This document shows positions 16,321 through 32,337 of a stretch of 38,567 nt of DNA, one piece after another (the stretch's first letter is position 1; the number at the start of each line of letters is the position of its first letter). Where the stretch lies: contig CAJVWH010000004.1 in assembly GCA_913009575.1 (NCBI GenBank), positions 1-38,567 of the forward strand. The letters run 5' to 3'. The position numbers and the translations under genes are program-made. The stretch is from an uncultured bacterium. Its GTDB lineage: Bacteria; Patescibacteriota; Minisyncoccia; UBA9983. A model generated the notes under the pieces. That model had not been told where the DNA came from, made no database searches, and saw only the letters and a list, made by a program, of their open reading frames with translations.

Positions 16321-17193
16321 TTACAATTTCTTTTCCGCTTCAATAAATTCATCAATCTCGCCTTTCAATACCGCCTCAACATCACTTGTCTCAACCCCTG
16401 TTCTATGGTCTTTCACAAGTTTATACGGATGAAAAACATATGACCGTATTTGATGTCCCCATTCCGCCTCCACTGTTTTGCCTAATTTCATTTTTTCTTC
16501 TTCTTTTTTTTGTTCTTCCAGTTTCCGCTTATAAAGCCGTGCGTTTAATATTTCCATCGCCTGCTCTTTATTTTGCTGTTGAGACCTTTCTGAATCCACA
16601 TGAACGGAAATATTGGTGGGTAAATGAACGACTCTCACGGCCGTTTCCCTTTTATTCACATTTTGTCCGCCCGGACCGCTTGCCCTCATAAAGTCTATTC
16701 TAATGTCATTTTCTGAAATTTCAATTTCTTTCGGTTCAACAAATTTCGGAATGACTTCAAGCATAGCAAAAGAAGTATGGCGGAGCTTTTTTGCGGAAAA
16801 TGGAGAAATTCGCACAAGGCGATGCACCCCCGATTCATTTTTTAAAACGCCGTAAACCCCTTTTCCCTTAACTTTAAAGGTGATATTTTTAAAGCCTCCG
16901 GAATCCGGCGCTTTATGTTGATGTAAAATTCTTGTCTCCCATCCTTTTTTTTCAGCGAATCCGGAATACATTTCAAAAAGAATCCGCGCCCAATCTTCGG
17001 CGTCGTCACCTCCGGCCCCGGAAAGAATGGTCAACACAGCATCACCTTTGTCATATTTATGTTTGGCTTTCTGCTGTTCTTTTAAGCTGCTGATTTCTTT
17101 CAAAACTTCTCGCGCCCTTTCTTTATCCTCCCAGAATTCCGGCTTCTGCATTTCTCCCTCAAGCTCATCCAGCTTTTTCCGAATATCTTTCAT
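16321..17193 (-). CDS. prfB: Peptide chain release factor 2, shortened domain 1
   Basis: SGAGGDDAEDWARILFEMY, RISPF (RF2 SPF tripeptide), GPGGQNVNK (GGQ); start MKDIRKKLDELEGEMQKPEFWED. Confidence 0.93.
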   Translation of the reverse strand: MKDIRKKLDELEGEMQKPEFWEDKERAREVLKEISSLKEQQKAKHKYDKGDAVLTILSGAGGDDAEDWARILFEMYSGFAEKKGWETRILHQHKAPDSGGFKNITFKVKGKGVYGVLKNESGVHRLVRISPFSAKKLRHTSFAMLEVIPKFVEPKEIEISENDIRIDFMRASGPGGQNVNKRETAVRVVHLPTNISVHVDSERSQQQNKEQAMEILNARLYKRKLEEQKKEEEKMKLGKTVEAEWGHQIRSYVFHPYKLVKDHRTGVETSDVEAVLKGEIDEFIEAEKKL

Positions 17194-17222
17194 TTCGTAA
17201 TTATATCGTAAAAACAACCATC

Positions 17223-25335: not shown

Positions 25336-25911
25336 TTATTCTACCGTTATCTGCCCTGTCGACCAAATAACTACAGTTTTCTGATCCCCGGAAGAGGATT
25401 TTATTTCTACTTCCGCATCGGAAAAATTTGAACCTTCCCCGACAAGAATAACAGTCGGATTCGGACGCAAAAAAATGACATCAAGACTGGATAAGCCACA
25501 TGCCCCCGGAGGGGAGGTTTTCGCATTTCCACATAAATTTGATATCTTGTCATTAGAGCCGATATGAAGTGTTTCTACCGCCTCTGATACTCCATCGTAA
25601 GAATTATTGGCGTTAACATCAGCAAATAATATGTATGAATCGGGAATACTGCTGTCAAAATGAATTCCATAACCCGGAAAAACTCCCACCCCCCCTCCAT
25701 ATTTTCTAACGGATGTTCCATAAACCTGCGCCTGACGCACAGATAAGGCAACCTCTTGGGCATCTCTCTTTAAACTCAATGTTGCTCTAAATCGCGGGTA
25801 ATTCGCAAAGAGCATCAAGGTAATCGTAAGAGCAATACTCATTGTCACCAAAAGTTCCACCAAACTAAAAGCGCCTTGGTGAATATTGTTTATATTTCTC
25901 GCGTATCTCAT
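25336..25911 (-). CDS. Type IV pseudopilin (GspH/FimT-like)
   Basis: GAFSLVELLVTMSIALTITLMLFANYPRFRATLSLKRDAQEVALSVRQAQVYG. Confidence 0.78.
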   Translation of the reverse strand: MRYARNINNIHQGAFSLVELLVTMSIALTITLMLFANYPRFRATLSLKRDAQEVALSVRQAQVYGTSVRKYGGGVGVFPGYGIHFDSSIPDSYILFADVNANNSYDGVSEAVETLHIGSNDKISNLCGNAKTSPPGACGLSSLDVIFLRPNPTVILVGEGSNFSDAEVEIKSSSGDQKTVVIWSTGQITVE

Positions 25912-26291
25912 TCAAAACGAAAAGTTACTTTATCAGACGGTTTAACGAACGTGTCAAAAGGCGAAGATGGCTGTTTTTTTCCGTTCACGTAAAAAACCCA
26001 TTTCTTGCCCTGATACCCGTTATAATAACCGTCAATTTTCACGGGGACAAAATCATTGTTCGCTCTTAAATCTATTTTTACCACCGCCGCGGCTTGTTGA
26101 AGAAGATTCCATGCTCGTCTTTTGCCGGAGAAAGTAGTCTGAAGAACATTCTGTTTGTTATTGCCGTAATCTAAAATTAGGGTAACTTTATTCCAGTTAT
26201 GTTTAAAACTGCCACTAGCGGCGAGCAAAAAAAAGAAAGCTAGAACAAAAGCACCAATCAATACCTTTTTTTTAACCTTTTCCAATTTCAT
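25908..26291 (-). CDS. Membrane-anchored DUF4430-like domain protein in the pilus operon
   Basis: N-terminal TM; VTLILDYGNNKQNV...AWNLLQQAAAVV...VKIDGYYNGYQGKKWVFYVNGKKQPSSPFDTFVKPSDKVTFRFE. Confidence 0.65.
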   Translation of the reverse strand: MKLEKVKKKVLIGAFVLAFFFLLAASGSFKHNWNKVTLILDYGNNKQNVLQTTFSGKRRAWNLLQQAAAVVKIDLRANNDFVPVKIDGYYNGYQGKKWVFYVNGKKQPSSPFDTFVKPSDKVTFRFE

Positions 26292-26308: not shown

Positions 26309-27148
26309 TTAAATAATGTGGATAATCACAATATTACCGACCCAAAAAGCAACTATTGACCCAAATGCTAAAAATGGACCAAATGCTATTTTACTTTTTA
26401 AATTATATCTCTTTTTTGCCAAAATTAACAATAGGATACCCACAAAGGCACCTGACCAGAAAGAAAAAAGGATTGCAGACAATCCCTTGGAAAAACCCAA
26501 GAGTAAGCCGATTCCCAAGGCAAGTTTAGCATCACCCAAACCCATAGCGCGTCCATGGGAAGCAAGCCACAGCAGACCAAAAAAACTGAAAAAAATAATT
26601 CCGGACAAAAGCCTGATTGGCAGCCCCGAGATACTGAATACTGAACGCCAAATTCCGGACAAACCCATATGGCTGGAGTCAAAAAACACCGCAAATGCGG
26701 AAAGAAAAATAAAAAGATAAACAAATTTGTCGGGAATAATTTGGTGCCTTATATCATAAACGGCGATTATAATCAGAACCGAAAAAATTGTCCAAAAGTA
26801 AACCAACCCAAGAACCAAAAATAAGGAGCCGGGGAATCTTAAGGTGTTATAATTCCCAATCCATAATTCGTGACTCCAAACGATGACAAAAATTAAACCT
26901 GTTAATAATTCCACCAACGGATATTGCCGGGAAATTTTGGACTTGCAGCCCCTGCATCTTCCTTTTTGCGCGAAAAAACTGGCTATCGGAATAAGTTCAT
27001 ACCACCTTAGTTTGCTTCCGCAGGCAAGGCAGGCGGAGTTGCCGTTTACAATAGATTTCCCCGTGTTGTAACGCAGAATTATCACATTCAAAAAACTGCC
27101 GATAATGGCTCCGAAAATAAATATAAAAATATAGATGGCTATTGGATT
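26309..27148 (-). CDS. pilD: Prepilin peptidase (A24 family)
   Basis: GAIIGSFLNVIILR, CLACGSKLRWYELIPIASFFAQKGRCRGCKSKISRQYPLVELLTG, AVYDIRHQIIPD, GLGDAKLALGIG. Confidence 0.95.
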   Translation of the reverse strand, partial: NPIAIYIFIFIFGAIIGSFLNVIILRYNTGKSIVNGNSACLACGSKLRWYELIPIASFFAQKGRCRGCKSKISRQYPLVELLTGLIFVIVWSHELWIGNYNTLRFPGSLFLVLGLVYFWTIFSVLIIIAVYDIRHQIIPDKFVYLFIFLSAFAVFFDSSHMGLSGIWRSVFSISGLPIRLLSGIIFFSFFGLLWLASHGRAMGLGDAKLALGIGLLLGFSKGLSAILFSFWSGAFVGILLLILAKKRYNLKSKIAFGPFLAFGSIVAFWVGNIVIIHII

Positions 27149-27172
27149 CATTATACTCTCAATTATAACACA

Positions 27173-27203
27173 AACCCCCGCGCTATGCATAAGCGCGGGG
27201 GTT
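27173..27203 (-). terminator. Strong hairpin downstream of the major pilin gene
   Basis: AACCCCCGCGCT-atgcata-AGCGCGGGGGTT, perfect 12-bp stem; modest T-richness follows on the minus strand. Confidence 0.65.
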
Positions 27204-27229
27204 GAACACGGAAAATTCAATCGGAAAAA

Positions 27230-27730
27230 CTAGGGTGTTATGTCGTAACATCCGTCATCCGTACCTGCCGCCGAACAATCAGCGCCTTGCCCGTTAAATC
27301 CAATGGTGCTATCAACATCTGAAGAAAGAGCGGCGTTTCCTCCGGTTCCGCTAAGGGTAGTGCCATTCTCTTCTAAATCGGCGCCCAGATGGTAAGAGGT
27401 GCATGGAGCGGTACTACATACCGCGGTTCCATTAGTTGACTGGTAAAAATATGTTTTACCTGCCAATGGATCGCTGGGAATAGCCGCGATATATCCGCTA
27501 GTTTTAAGCGCAGTAAGAGCAGCTATGTCTCCCGTTGGATATTGATTGTTTGATGAATCAAAATACATCTCCAAAGCCAGTTGAAGTTGTTTGATATCCG
27601 CCACTCTGCGCGCGTCTCTGCCTTTCTTTCTCGCGCTATTCAATGAAGCGAGAACGATTGAAGCGAGAATACCTATGATGGCAATCACAACCAAAAGCTC
27701 AATTAATGTAAAACCTTTATTTTTTCTCAT
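27230..27730 (-). CDS. Type IV pilin (likely major pilin)
   Basis: MRKNKGFTLIELLVVIAIIGILASIVLASLNSARKKGRDARRVADIKQLQLALEMYF. Confidence 0.93.
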   Translation of the reverse strand: MRKNKGFTLIELLVVIAIIGILASIVLASLNSARKKGRDARRVADIKQLQLALEMYFDSSNNQYPTGDIAALTALKTSGYIAAIPSDPLAGKTYFYQSTNGTAVCSTAPCTSYHLGADLEENGTTLSGTGGNAALSSDVDSTIGFNGQGADCSAAGTDDGCYDITP

Positions 27731-27881: not shown

Positions 27882-29090
27882 TCAAATAGCTGAAGTGATA
27901 TTGTAAATCGGCCCAAGTATTGAAACAAGCAGAATACCCACTGCGAGACCCAAAGCAATAATCATCACTGGCTCAATCAAGCTTACTAAATTTTCCACCG
28001 AATTATCAACTTCCCTTTTATAAAAACCTGCCAGTGTTTTCAAGATAAAGCCCAATTTACCAGATTCCTCTCCAACTCTTATCATTTGGGAAACAAGCGG
28101 CGGAATTTCTTTATATCTTGAAAAAACCTCAGAAATAGGGACACCTCCTTTAACTGCTTCTAAAGAATCCTTGAGTATTTTTTCATAAATTCTATTTCCC
28201 ACAACATCAGCCGTTATTTCCAATGCTCTTACCACGGATACGCCGCTTGAAAGCAGTGTCTCAAGGTTATCGGTGACACGCGAAAGATAAAGTTTCTTAT
28301 AGAGCTTCCCGACATAAGGAAATGACAATTGAAGGCGGGATATGACTGATCTTCCGATTTCGGTGCGGGTGTAACGCCATAGAAAAATTATTCCCGCCAC
28401 CAAAGCCATTAAAAAGAAAATTCCATAAGACCGCAAAAACTCGCTTGTGCCAATCACAATTCTTGTATAAATCGGCAAGTCATGCCCGACATCCTTCAAA
28501 ATTTCGCTTAAGCGCGGGATAACAAAAACCATCATTAAAATCATTACGGAAAAAAAAGTAAAAATGACAAAGGCGGGATAATAAAGCGCATTTTTTGCTT
28601 TGGATGTCAACTCGTAAGACCTTTGGAGATAATCGGCAAGATAAGAAAAAACTTCATTCAATTTCCCCGACTCCTCGCCGGACCTGACCATATTCACATA
28701 AAATTTTGAAAAAACATCCGGATGTTTCGCCATTGCGGAAGACATGGGAATCCCCCCCTGAATATCAGCCAAAAGTTCGCTTAATTTCCTGCGCAAAAGA
28801 GGGTTTTCCGCTTCAAGAGCCAAAAGCTTTAAAGAATCCACAACAGGAACTTTTGCTTCAAAAAGGGTGGACAATTGCCTTGAAAGTATGACCACATCAC
28901 GCGCGCTCACTCTTTCAAAAAATTTGATATCTTTTCCCTAACAATGCTCCGTCTTTACGGAAGCATCAATGGAATTATTTATCTAATTTCTTCTTTGCAG
29001 AGAAGAAATTGCAATTTCAACATTGGCCGCTTCAATACTGCCCGATTGTTTTTCCCCTTCTAATGTTGTGGCTTCGTATTTATATAACAT
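27882..29090 (-). CDS. pilC: Type IV pilus inner-membrane platform protein PilC, interrupted by two in-frame UAG codons (28983-28985, 28938-28940)
   Basis: Downstream ORF 27882-28910 has two T2SSF-type halves; upstream same-frame MLYKYEATTLEGEKQSGSIEAANVEIAISSLQRRN matches the PilC N-terminus. Confidence 0.85.
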
Positions 29091-29102: not shown

Positions 29103-30167
29103 TTATATCAATCCTTCCAATCCCTTTGAGTTTAAGGAATAATTATAAGCGTTATCGGCTGAAATTTCTCCCTCTCGGACTAAATCCGCCAAAGAGCGAT
29201 TCAAGCTCACCATTCCCAACTCAAGACTGGTTTCAATAACAATATCAATTTCATGGGTGCGATTCTCGCGAATGAGATTTTTGACAGCCGGAGTGGCAAT
29301 AAGTAATTCATAAGCGGGAATAAGCCCTCCGGAAATGCGAGGCAGCAAACGCTGGGAAAATACACCAACCAAGGCGTTTGAAAGTTGGAGGCGGATTTGG
29401 TTTTGTCTGTCTGTCGGGAAAGAATCAATAATTCTGTCTATGGTTTGGGCGGCATCATTCGTGTGAAGCGAAGAGAATATCAAATGGCCTGTTTCGGCGG
29501 CGGTAACCGCCGCCGATATCGTTTCCGTGTCTCTCATCTCCCCCAACATGGCAACATTCACATCCTCCCTAAACATTGAGCGCAAAGCGTTTTTAAAATC
29601 GTTTGTGTCAATTTTTACTTCTCTCTGGTCAATTATTGATTTATCTTGCGCGAAAATATGCTCAATCGGATCTTCAATAGTGAGTATGTGCTCCGCTCTT
29701 GAATGGTTTATAAAATCAATCATAGAAGCCATGGTAGTTGATTTGCCATGTCCAATGGGACCGACAATAAGGAAAAAACCTTGTTCTTTATTGGCAAAAT
29801 CCGTAAGCACTTCGGGAAGATTCAGTTCCTTAAAAGTCATTATTTTCACCGGAATAAAACGCAAGGCCGCGCCCAAAAAACCGCGTTGATAAAAAGCGTT
29901 TACGCGCAGCCTTGTTTTGTCGCCCAAGACATAGGAAAAATCAATCTCCTTATCGTTTAATAGTTTTCTGCGTTGTTCCTCGTTCAACATGGCAAAAACC
30001 AATCCCTCGGTATCTTCAGGGGAAAGAATTGGATTTTTTACCAAAGGAATCAGCGAACCGGCAATTCTAATGGTGGGATGCCTGGCAACAGTGAAATGCA
30101 GGTCGGAAGCATCCTCCTTCACCGCCGCCATGATTAAATTTGACAATTGTTTTTTGTAATCATCCAT
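29103..30167 (-). CDS. pilT: Type IV pilus retraction ATPase PilT
   Basis: DASDLHFTVARHPTIRIAG, GPIGHGKSTTMASMIDFIN, EDPIEHIF, GEMRDTETISAAVTAAETGHLIFSSLHTNDA. Confidence 0.95.
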   Translation of the reverse strand: MDDYKKQLSNLIMAAVKEDASDLHFTVARHPTIRIAGSLIPLVKNPILSPEDTEGLVFAMLNEEQRRKLLNDKEIDFSYVLGDKTRLRVNAFYQRGFLGAALRFIPVKIMTFKELNLPEVLTDFANKEQGFFLIVGPIGHGKSTTMASMIDFINHSRAEHILTIEDPIEHIFAQDKSIIDQREVKIDTNDFKNALRSMFREDVNVAMLGEMRDTETISAAVTAAETGHLIFSSLHTNDAAQTIDRIIDSFPTDRQNQIRLQLSNALVGVFSQRLLPRISGGLIPAYELLIATPAVKNLIRENRTHEIDIVIETSLELGMVSLNRSLADLVREGEISADNAYNYSLNSKGLEGLI

Positions 30168-30185
30168 AAAAATATAAACAAACTC

Positions 30186-30566
30186 CTACTTTTTCTCTTT
30201 CAATAAATTAATAATTTTATTAACGACCTCGGAGGGGGTAAAAAACGCCTTCACAATATAATCATGCACCCCCATTTTCAATCCTTTCCTAATGTCTTCT
30301 TTTTGCCCCAAATTTGACAAGATAACCAATTTGCTTTTTTCTGCCAAATGTTCTTTTTTTAAATTTTCCAAAAAACCAAAGCCGTCCATATTGGGCATTA
30401 TCAAATCAAAAATGATGATGTCCGGCCTAAGACCGTTTCTTATTTTTTCCAAGGCGTTAACGCCGCCAAAAGCAATCTCAACATCAAAATCGGACTGCTG
30501 GAATTTCAACGAATACATATCCAAAAGAAATTCATCATCATCTATTATCAAAATGGAATATTTCAT
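30186..30566 (-). CDS. CheY-like response regulator receiver protein
   Basis: MKYSILIIDDDEFLLDMY, PDIIIFDLIMPNMDGFGFLENL, VILSNLGQ, GVHDYIVKAFF. Confidence 0.93.
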   Translation of the reverse strand: MKYSILIIDDDEFLLDMYSLKFQQSDFDVEIAFGGVNALEKIRNGLRPDIIIFDLIMPNMDGFGFLENLKKEHLAEKSKLVILSNLGQKEDIRKGLKMGVHDYIVKAFFTPSEVVNKIINLLKEKK

Positions 30567-30630: not shown

Positions 30631-32337
30631 TTATAACCTATCAAGCTCTTCCAAGCCAATGGTTCCCTCAAAAACCTTTAATAAAGCGTTTTCTTTCATG
30701 GTAAGCATCTCTTGCCGACGTGCTTCTTTAAATATTTCCGGTTCAACCGGACTTGATAAAATTATATTCTCAAGTTGGGAACTCTTTGCTAAAACCTCAA
30801 ACACTCCCGCTCTTCCTTTCGCACCCTGCGGGCAAACACTTGAGGGGATGCCTTGATAAATATTGTCGGGAATTTTGATGTCTTTTCTTATTGAGGGAGG
30901 TATTTCAGAAATTTCTTTCTCAATTCTCTCTTTTGCAATTCCCATAAGAGGTATCTTTTTCCGCGAATCTGGACAAAGGGTTCTGACTAACCGCTGGCCT
31001 ATTGCCAAAACCAACGTTGGGGCGATTAAAAAAGGATCCACCCCCATATCCACCAAACGCGGAATAACTCCTATCGCGTTATTCGTGTGTAATGTTGAAA
31101 ACACGAGATGTCCGGTGAGGGCGGCTTGAATCGCCAAGGATGCAGTTTCTTTGTCGCGTATCTCTCCAACCATAATCATATCCGGATCTTGGCGTAAAAT
31201 AGAACGGAGTCCATTCGCAAAATCATATCCTATTTCCGGCATCACTTGAGATTGGCTTATTCCCTCAATGGTATATTCAATCGGGTCCTCCAAGCTGATA
31301 ACATTGTTTTTCTCTCTATCAAGTTCCTGAAGCATGGAATACAGGGTTGTCGTTTTTCCCGAACCTGTCGGACCCGTAAGAAGTATTAATCCATAAGGAT
31401 TTTTTAGGCCGGCCTTAACTATTTTCAAACTGTGGCCGGACAAACCCACTTCTTCCAAGGTCTTAATATTTTTTTCCTGGTCAAGAATCCGAATAACCAC
31501 TTTTTCCCCGAAAAAAGTGGGGAAAGTGGAAACTCTAAAATCAATTGACCTATTCTCTATGCGGGCTTCAAAATGGCCGTCTTGAGGCTTGCGCTTCTCA
31601 TCAAGCTTCATGTCAGTCAAAATTTTTATTCTAGAAACAATCGCCTCGTGCACATTCAACGGGAGCATTAAACTGGTATAAAGAATGCCGTCAACCCTAA
31701 AACGCACTTTCAATTTGTCCTTAAGCGGCTCTATATGGATATCAGAAGCCCCCCCGACAACAGCGTGCCTTAATATCACTGCAACCATTTTGGTGACAGG
31801 CGCGTCTTCTACAAATTTTGAACCGGTCTTAACCGTGTCTTCCGGAGTTATTTCTTTTTCTGTCTCTAATAATGCCGATTCAAGTTCTCCCAAAACCTTA
31901 GTTGCTTCGCCGCTCAAACCTTTATACTCATCTATTACGGAATTAAAATCCTCCTCGGAAATCAAAAGGACTTTGAGGGGAAAATTTAATTTGGAAACTA
32001 TAAATTGTAAAGCTTCTCTGGCCTCAATGTCTTCAGGGTCAACCATACCCATTTCCAAAATTCCTCCTTCAAATCCCAAGGGCACGAATTTATAATGTCT
32101 AGCCGCCTCTTCAGGGATTTGTTTTAATGCTTCAAAAGGAATTTTTTTTTCTGAAAGACTTTTAAAAGGTACGCCAATCGCTTCTGATTTCGCTTTAATA
32201 ATTTCATCTCCCGAAATCCCTTGCGCCTTAAGCAATTTTTCCAGGGATATTTTCCTTTCTCTGGAAAGATTGATGAGTTTAGATAATTCCTCGGAATTGA
32301 TAATCTTTTTTTCTATTAAAATATCTGTAAATTGCAT
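30631..32337 (-). CDS. pilB: Type IV pilus assembly ATPase PilB
   Basis: T2SSE N-domain; ASDIHIEPLKDKLKVRFRVDGIL; GPTGSGKTTTLYSML; VGEIRDKETASLAIQAALTGHLVFSTLHTNNA. Confidence 0.95.
   Translation of the reverse strand: MQFTDILIEKKIINSEELSKLINLSRERKISLEKLLKAQGISGDEIIKAKSEAIGVPFKSLSEKKIPFEALKQIPEEAARHYKFVPLGFEGGILEMGMVDPEDIEAREALQFIVSKLNFPLKVLLISEEDFNSVIDEYKGLSGEATKVLGELESALLETEKEITPEDTVKTGSKFVEDAPVTKMVAVILRHAVVGGASDIHIEPLKDKLKVRFRVDGILYTSLMLPLNVHEAIVSRIKILTDMKLDEKRKPQDGHFEARIENRSIDFRVSTFPTFFGEKVVIRILDQEKNIKTLEEVGLSGHSLKIVKAGLKNPYGLILLTGPTGSGKTTTLYSMLQELDREKNNVISLEDPIEYTIEGISQSQVMPEIGYDFANGLRSILRQDPDMIMVGEIRDKETASLAIQAALTGHLVFSTLHTNNAIGVIPRLVDMGVDPFLIAPTLVLAIGQRLVRTLCPDSRKKIPLMGIAKERIEKEISEIPPSIRKDIKIPDNIYQGIPSSVCPQGAKGRAGVFEVLAKSSQLENIILSSPVEPEIFKEARRQEMLTMKENALLKVFEGTIGLEELDRL

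Follow-up and report, generated by a model that had tools for sequence, protein, structure and literature searches.

Two in-frame UAG codons in a patescibacterial type IV pilus platform gene: a possible recent loss of the N-terminal domain of PilC

Introduction

Platform proteins of the ComGB type contain no N-domain. By contrast, PilC/GspF proteins (T2SSF, PF00482) such as PulF and the PilC of T. thermophilus carry an N-terminal domain of beta-beta-alpha-beta topology in addition to two Cyto domains and membrane helices. The gene described here has the two Cyto domains, the membrane helices and the operon position in common with them; the frame of its N-terminal domain is broken by two UAG codons. 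PulF from Klebsiella lacking residues 2-54 is stable, oligomerises and is partly functional, and N-domains that are dispensable in P. aeruginosa PilC and N. meningitidis PilG are cited in the same study (PMC10790770). The Saccharibacterium N. lyticus TM7x has two type IV pili, a thin nonessential and a thick essential one, and it encodes pilT in locus one, not in locus two (PMC12206443). Moreover, there are reports from prokaryotes of in-frame stop codons that evolve under purifying selection (PMC7918605).

Here we analyse pilC on a contig of 38,567 nucleotides (C4, in the following called the window) from a very small uncultured bacterium of the Patescibacteriota, whose genome assembly was obtained from an environmental sample and comprises 652 kb on 39 contigs with a completeness of 94.6%. 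A preliminary description, made from the sequence alone, had reported two in-frame UAG codons in an otherwise intact pilC and had offered four options: a sequencing or strain error, truncation with a restart at a GTG, a two-protein PilC, or stop-codon readthrough controlling pilus assembly.

The pil locus

The genes pilB, pilT, the pilin gene and pilD surround pilC in an operon, which comprises the following features and further pseudopilin-like genes:

30631-32337, minus strand: pilB, assembly ATPase with MshEN and T2SSE domains, intact
30186-30566, minus strand: intact gene for a single-domain response regulator, placed between pilB and pilT here and in the pil loci of the family
29103-30167, minus strand: pilT, intact gene for the retraction ATPase, separated from pilC by 12 nt on its upstream side
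27882-29090, minus strand: pilC, platform protein of the type IV pilus in the inner membrane; its full homologous frame spans 402 codons, two of them internal UAGs, and is recognised by Pfam and NCBIfam
27230-27730, minus strand: pilin with N-methylation motif, intact, ending with TAG
26309-27220, minus strand: pilD, prepilin peptidase, intact

All neighbours of pilC are intact, and alignments with their relatives cover them fully or for the most part. Downstream of pilD lies a gene for a small DUF4430 protein (25908-26291, minus strand), homologs of which occupy the same place in relatives. The pilT coding region contains a G+C-rich 10-bp hairpin, TCGGCGGCGGTAACCGCCGCCGA (29494-29516).

The pilC reading frame and its two UAG codons

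The pilC frame starts with ATG at 29090 and terminates with TGA at 27884-27882 on the minus strand, and it is divided as follows:

28986-29090, minus strand: codons 1-35, the open stretch before UAG 1, coding for the beta-beta-alpha portion of the N-domain
28985-28983, minus strand: UAG 1, codon 36, first residue of the predicted strand 3 of the N-domain
28940-28938, minus strand: UAG 2, codon 51, in the disordered linker between N-domain and core
27882-28910, minus strand: intact ORF from GTG 28910 (codon 61), PilC core of 342 aa with both T2SSF domains

Coordinates, frame and both stops agree exactly with the preliminary description, as does the observation that the ORF caller reports pilC from GTG 28910 onward, as a protein of 342 aa; the automatic call thereby hides the broken 5' part of the gene. 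The NCBIfam GspF/PilC profile matches residues 3-402 of the frame, and Pfam T2SSF matches twice. Together with a structure model of the frame read through both stops (pLDDT 84), these matches reveal the T2SSF pair with its membrane helices. The modelled N-domain consists of strands 2-9 and 14-20, helix 24-33 and strand 36-43; it is followed by a disordered linker (residues 45-58, pLDDT below 50), and the core starts with helix 63. According to this model, UAG 1 takes away the last strand of the N-domain and GTG codon 61 is located at the border of the core.

With 402 residues compared to 400-404 in orthologs, the frame shows no change in length, as had been stated before, which indicates that substitutions rather than indels are behind the stops. 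The proposal that each UAG is one change away from a UUG Leu codon is possible at codon 36, a column with Leu or Phe and one Tyr across 26 relatives; codon 51, however, falls into the variable linker and aligns to Trp in the two nearest relatives. Similarly, the sequence had been described as PilC-like on both sides of and between the stops. This holds for the flanks, which both appear fully constrained, and does not hold in this simple form for the segment between the stops, where this gene has Asn at position 38, occupied by I, V or L throughout the 26 relatives (I38N), an unusual Asn at position 39 (V39N), and Ala at position 43, where Pro is invariant in the family (P43A).

A truncated platform protein as the preferred explanation

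The explanation that we tentatively put first is a recent, genome-specific double-nonsense lesion that removes the N-domain, while the core may still be produced from GTG 28910. The two UAGs would have hit the coding sequence of the beta-beta-alpha-beta domain and the linker recently and in this genome only. Since UAG is a normal stop in this genome (see below), ribosomes starting at ATG 29090 would release a fragment of 35 residues. The complete core, with both T2SSF domains and membrane helices, may be produced from GTG 28910, either by restart or by direct initiation independent of a Shine-Dalgarno sequence, and the product would be an N-domain-less, ComGB-like platform protein working at reduced efficiency. 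Truncation with a GTG restart accordingly ranks first among the four options offered initially, with 28910 as the proposed start of the core.

As the N-domain of PulF can be deleted and ComGB has none, the lesion lies in the one part that PilC can spare. The PulF deletion removes nearly the same part and leaves a partly functional protein; however, that deletion was constructed in the laboratory, in a type II secretion system, and came with its own start codon, while the present case is natural and known from sequence alone. The layout of ComGB (NF041012) appears to be matched by the ORF from GTG 28910, with 342 aa, two T2SSF domains and no N-domain, and the ComGB profile matches PilC only from residue 72 on; yet this ORF is by descent an N-truncated PilC in a locus with pilT, and the profile score of 127.7 bits stays below the NCBIfam cut-off of 240. 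As in recent bacterial pseudogenes and other nonsense-interrupted genes, in-frame stops occur in an otherwise intact conserved frame; in contrast to the usual cases, both stops are confined to a dispensable domain. If real, the lesion represents a natural counterpart of the laboratory deletion of the PulF N-domain and implies that a platform protein can lose this domain.

Constraint on pilC and the second pilus system

The next explanation to be considered is that pilC is freshly dead, i.e., that both stops are genuine and no useful core results, the gene has had no time to decay, and a second PilC runs a separate pilus system. A second pilC-pilB locus is indeed present on contig C18. Its PilC, however, is just 33% identical, and relatives also have the second system and keep both intact. 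Moreover, pilB, pilT, the pilin gene and pilD of the same locus as the interrupted gene are intact, which further argues against a null. In N. lyticus TM7x it is the thick pilus that is essential, while that of the second locus is not (PMC12206443), and by this analogy a complete loss of pilC would probably come at a high cost; a null is then less likely than a working core or an error.

The sequence surrounding the stops carries no sign of decay. By profile score, residues 1-35 rank first and residues 61-402 third among 27 sequences, and singular departures in the flanks of the UAG patch amount to 0/12 and 1/100. Within the core, this gene and its nearest relative have about the same number of substitutions of their own with each of three outgroups (24/29, 23/23 and 21/25, respectively), so that the core from GTG 28910 shows neither acceleration nor decay. 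The same balance is seen in three other pil genes, pilT and pilB among them. The lineages compared are old, given that four-fold sites are near saturation. We also considered a long-standing pseudogene with uniform decay, and constraint was not relaxed over the whole gene; judged from these substitution patterns, long neutral decay of the whole pilC is excluded. The clean flanks mean that the lesion is young, or that the core is still selected, or both. A recent null would leave clean flanks likewise. The freshly dead gene is the first of the alternatives, albeit an unlikely one. Compared with it, the truncation put first above would include a core that is possibly translated.

Comparison with orthologs and the possibility of an assembly error

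The preliminary description had suggested a comparison with related pilC genes. Ten genomes of the same family contain a pilC ortholog (59-76% identity), nine of them full-length and the tenth truncated at a contig end; all ten are free of internal stops. A class-wide draw of 289 genomes yielded 260 with a pilC match at E <= 1e-70, and among the best matches listed, about 150, no stop was found in pilC besides the ones in this gene. The frame aligns to intact orthologs over residues 1-402, with 76% identity to the nearest one, and as none listed has a stop, this agreement is more than chance. All class relatives among the matches listed keep the N-domain, which speaks against the preferred explanation. 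A loss of the N-domain elsewhere in the class was considered and rejected, as the sole truncated match among the ortholog rows listed (G064) is explained by a contig end.

These comparison genomes belong to other genera of the family or to the class-wide draw, and the stops are present in one genome of 39 contigs alone. This would also fit a consensus or assembly error, namely a short mis-resolved patch around 28938-28985, all the more as the odd residues are confined to one patch of ~50 nt with clean surroundings. For an error, however, it would be an odd pattern to have two distinct in-frame substitutions and neither an indel nor a frameshift, and the other genes of the locus align to relatives over their full length. 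The error option of the preliminary description survives below truncation; we regard it as unlikely too, and place it behind a freshly dead gene. If it were to apply, the locus would call for caution on stop codons in metagenome-assembled genomes. The lesion preferred here is more probably located in the organism than just in its assembly, and it is presumably recent.

The GTG start of the core

Two points speak against a start at GTG 28910: GTG starts are rare in the window, and the distance from UAG 1 is about 75 nt. In its favour, it is preceded by the A+T-rich sequence ATATCAAATTTTTTGAAAGA, which is comparable to the upstream sequences of this genome's own starts: most genes of the window, including pilC at its ATG, have no Shine-Dalgarno match and are A+T-rich upstream. 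One could go further and assume a natural N-domain-less PilC that is translated via the Shine-Dalgarno-free GTG 28910 and maintained by selection, with the N-terminal piece made as a separate peptide or lost; extension and retraction of the pilus would then be balanced differently. We consider this quite unlikely.

The segment between the stops

Alternatively, pilC might be a maintained split gene, in which the N-terminal peptide of 35 aa and the core are made separately while the segment between them drifts. The outer pieces are conserved, and I38N, V39N and P43A fall in between. Against this, the N-terminal piece would, according to the model, be without the last strand of its fold, no class relative listed shows such an arrangement, and departures between the stops are few: one of three strictly conserved columns is affected (Fisher p = 0.06, stops not counted). 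The two-protein PilC suggested earlier is thus conceivable in principle and weak, given a beta-beta-alpha fragment of 35 aa that is short of a strand, and we rate it as improbable. That damage is strongly clustered between the stops was also rejected; it is true at family level (P43, L36, I38) and weak against class-wide variation, as seen from the same Fisher test and from a few other relatives that score about as low over residues 37-43. The local excess of unusual residues is modest, with relatives further out varying here too.

A hairpin is located exactly between the UAGs:

28946-28964, minus strand: hairpin GCTTCCGTAAAGACGGAGC, core of a larger fold of codons 33-60

As predicted, it extends into the sequence just upstream of GTG 28910, which speaks against initiation there. 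Relative to shuffled sequences, the fold of codons 33-60 reaches z = -4.4, the lowest value of 28 orthologs; a stop-free relative reaches z = -3.5 for the same pilC region. There is no second copy of the hairpin in the window, it was found in this genome only, and a terminator scan returned no Rho-independent terminator at 28946-28964. With the value of this relative, the single copy and no terminator, we assign no function to the hairpin. The inter-UAG patch likewise has no second copy in the genome, and a diversity-generating template or mobile origin was rejected on account of the single-copy patch and hairpin and of no match to viral contigs. A templated (quasi-palindrome) mutation was rejected as well: the left arm could copy the right arm, but the changes in codons 36-39 are not explained in this way, and the relatives are too diverged for a reconstruction of the ancestor.

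Decoding of UAG

Regulated readthrough or recoding of UAG would yield low amounts of full-length PilC, perhaps aided by the hairpin between the stops. The frame past the stops is open and conserved, codons 33-60 form the most stable fold among the 28 orthologs relative to shuffled sequences, and selected in-frame stops have the prokaryotic precedent mentioned above. Nevertheless, the search for a CUA-anticodon tRNA proposed in the preliminary description found none among the 42 tRNA genes that pass the Rfam cut-off in this 94.6% complete genome. An ORF for release factor 1 (RF1) is present on contig C7 (L115:1501-2223), and TAG ends 5 of the 35 main ORFs of the window, including a pilin and the response regulator, the homologs of which match up to or near their ends. 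In view of the tRNA set, RF1 and the TAG-ended genes, a genome-wide reassignment of UAG was rejected; UAG is a normal stop in this genome. Furthermore, two UAGs in a row, 15 codons apart, would multiply the loss, the read-through segment contains residues absent from relatives, and the in-frame UAGs are conserved neither in the family orthologs nor in the class-wide matches listed. Controlled readthrough thereby becomes very improbable, and pilC provides no evidence for a new use of UAG.

Ribosomal bypassing of codons 36-51, resembling the hop in T4 gene 60, is hardly credible: a stop is positioned at the putative take-off site and the hairpin lies within the gap, but by alignment these codons are no insertion compared with homologs, so that a hop would remove strand 3, and just past UAG 2 the sequence offers no matching in-frame landing codon for AAT.

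The RF1 of this genome has a length of only ~240 aa, with a PxT motif (here PTT) and a GGQ motif and without the N-terminal domain 1, a combination of features for which a literature search returned nothing. Its orthologs in the family (L118-L127) are similarly short open frames of about 243-287 aa. The reduced RF1 was rejected as a cause of the stops, because the family orthologs equally lack domain 1 and yet have no stops in pilC. Release factor 2 (16321-17217, minus strand) is also shortened in its N-terminal part, with ~300 aa and a score just below the curated cut-off.
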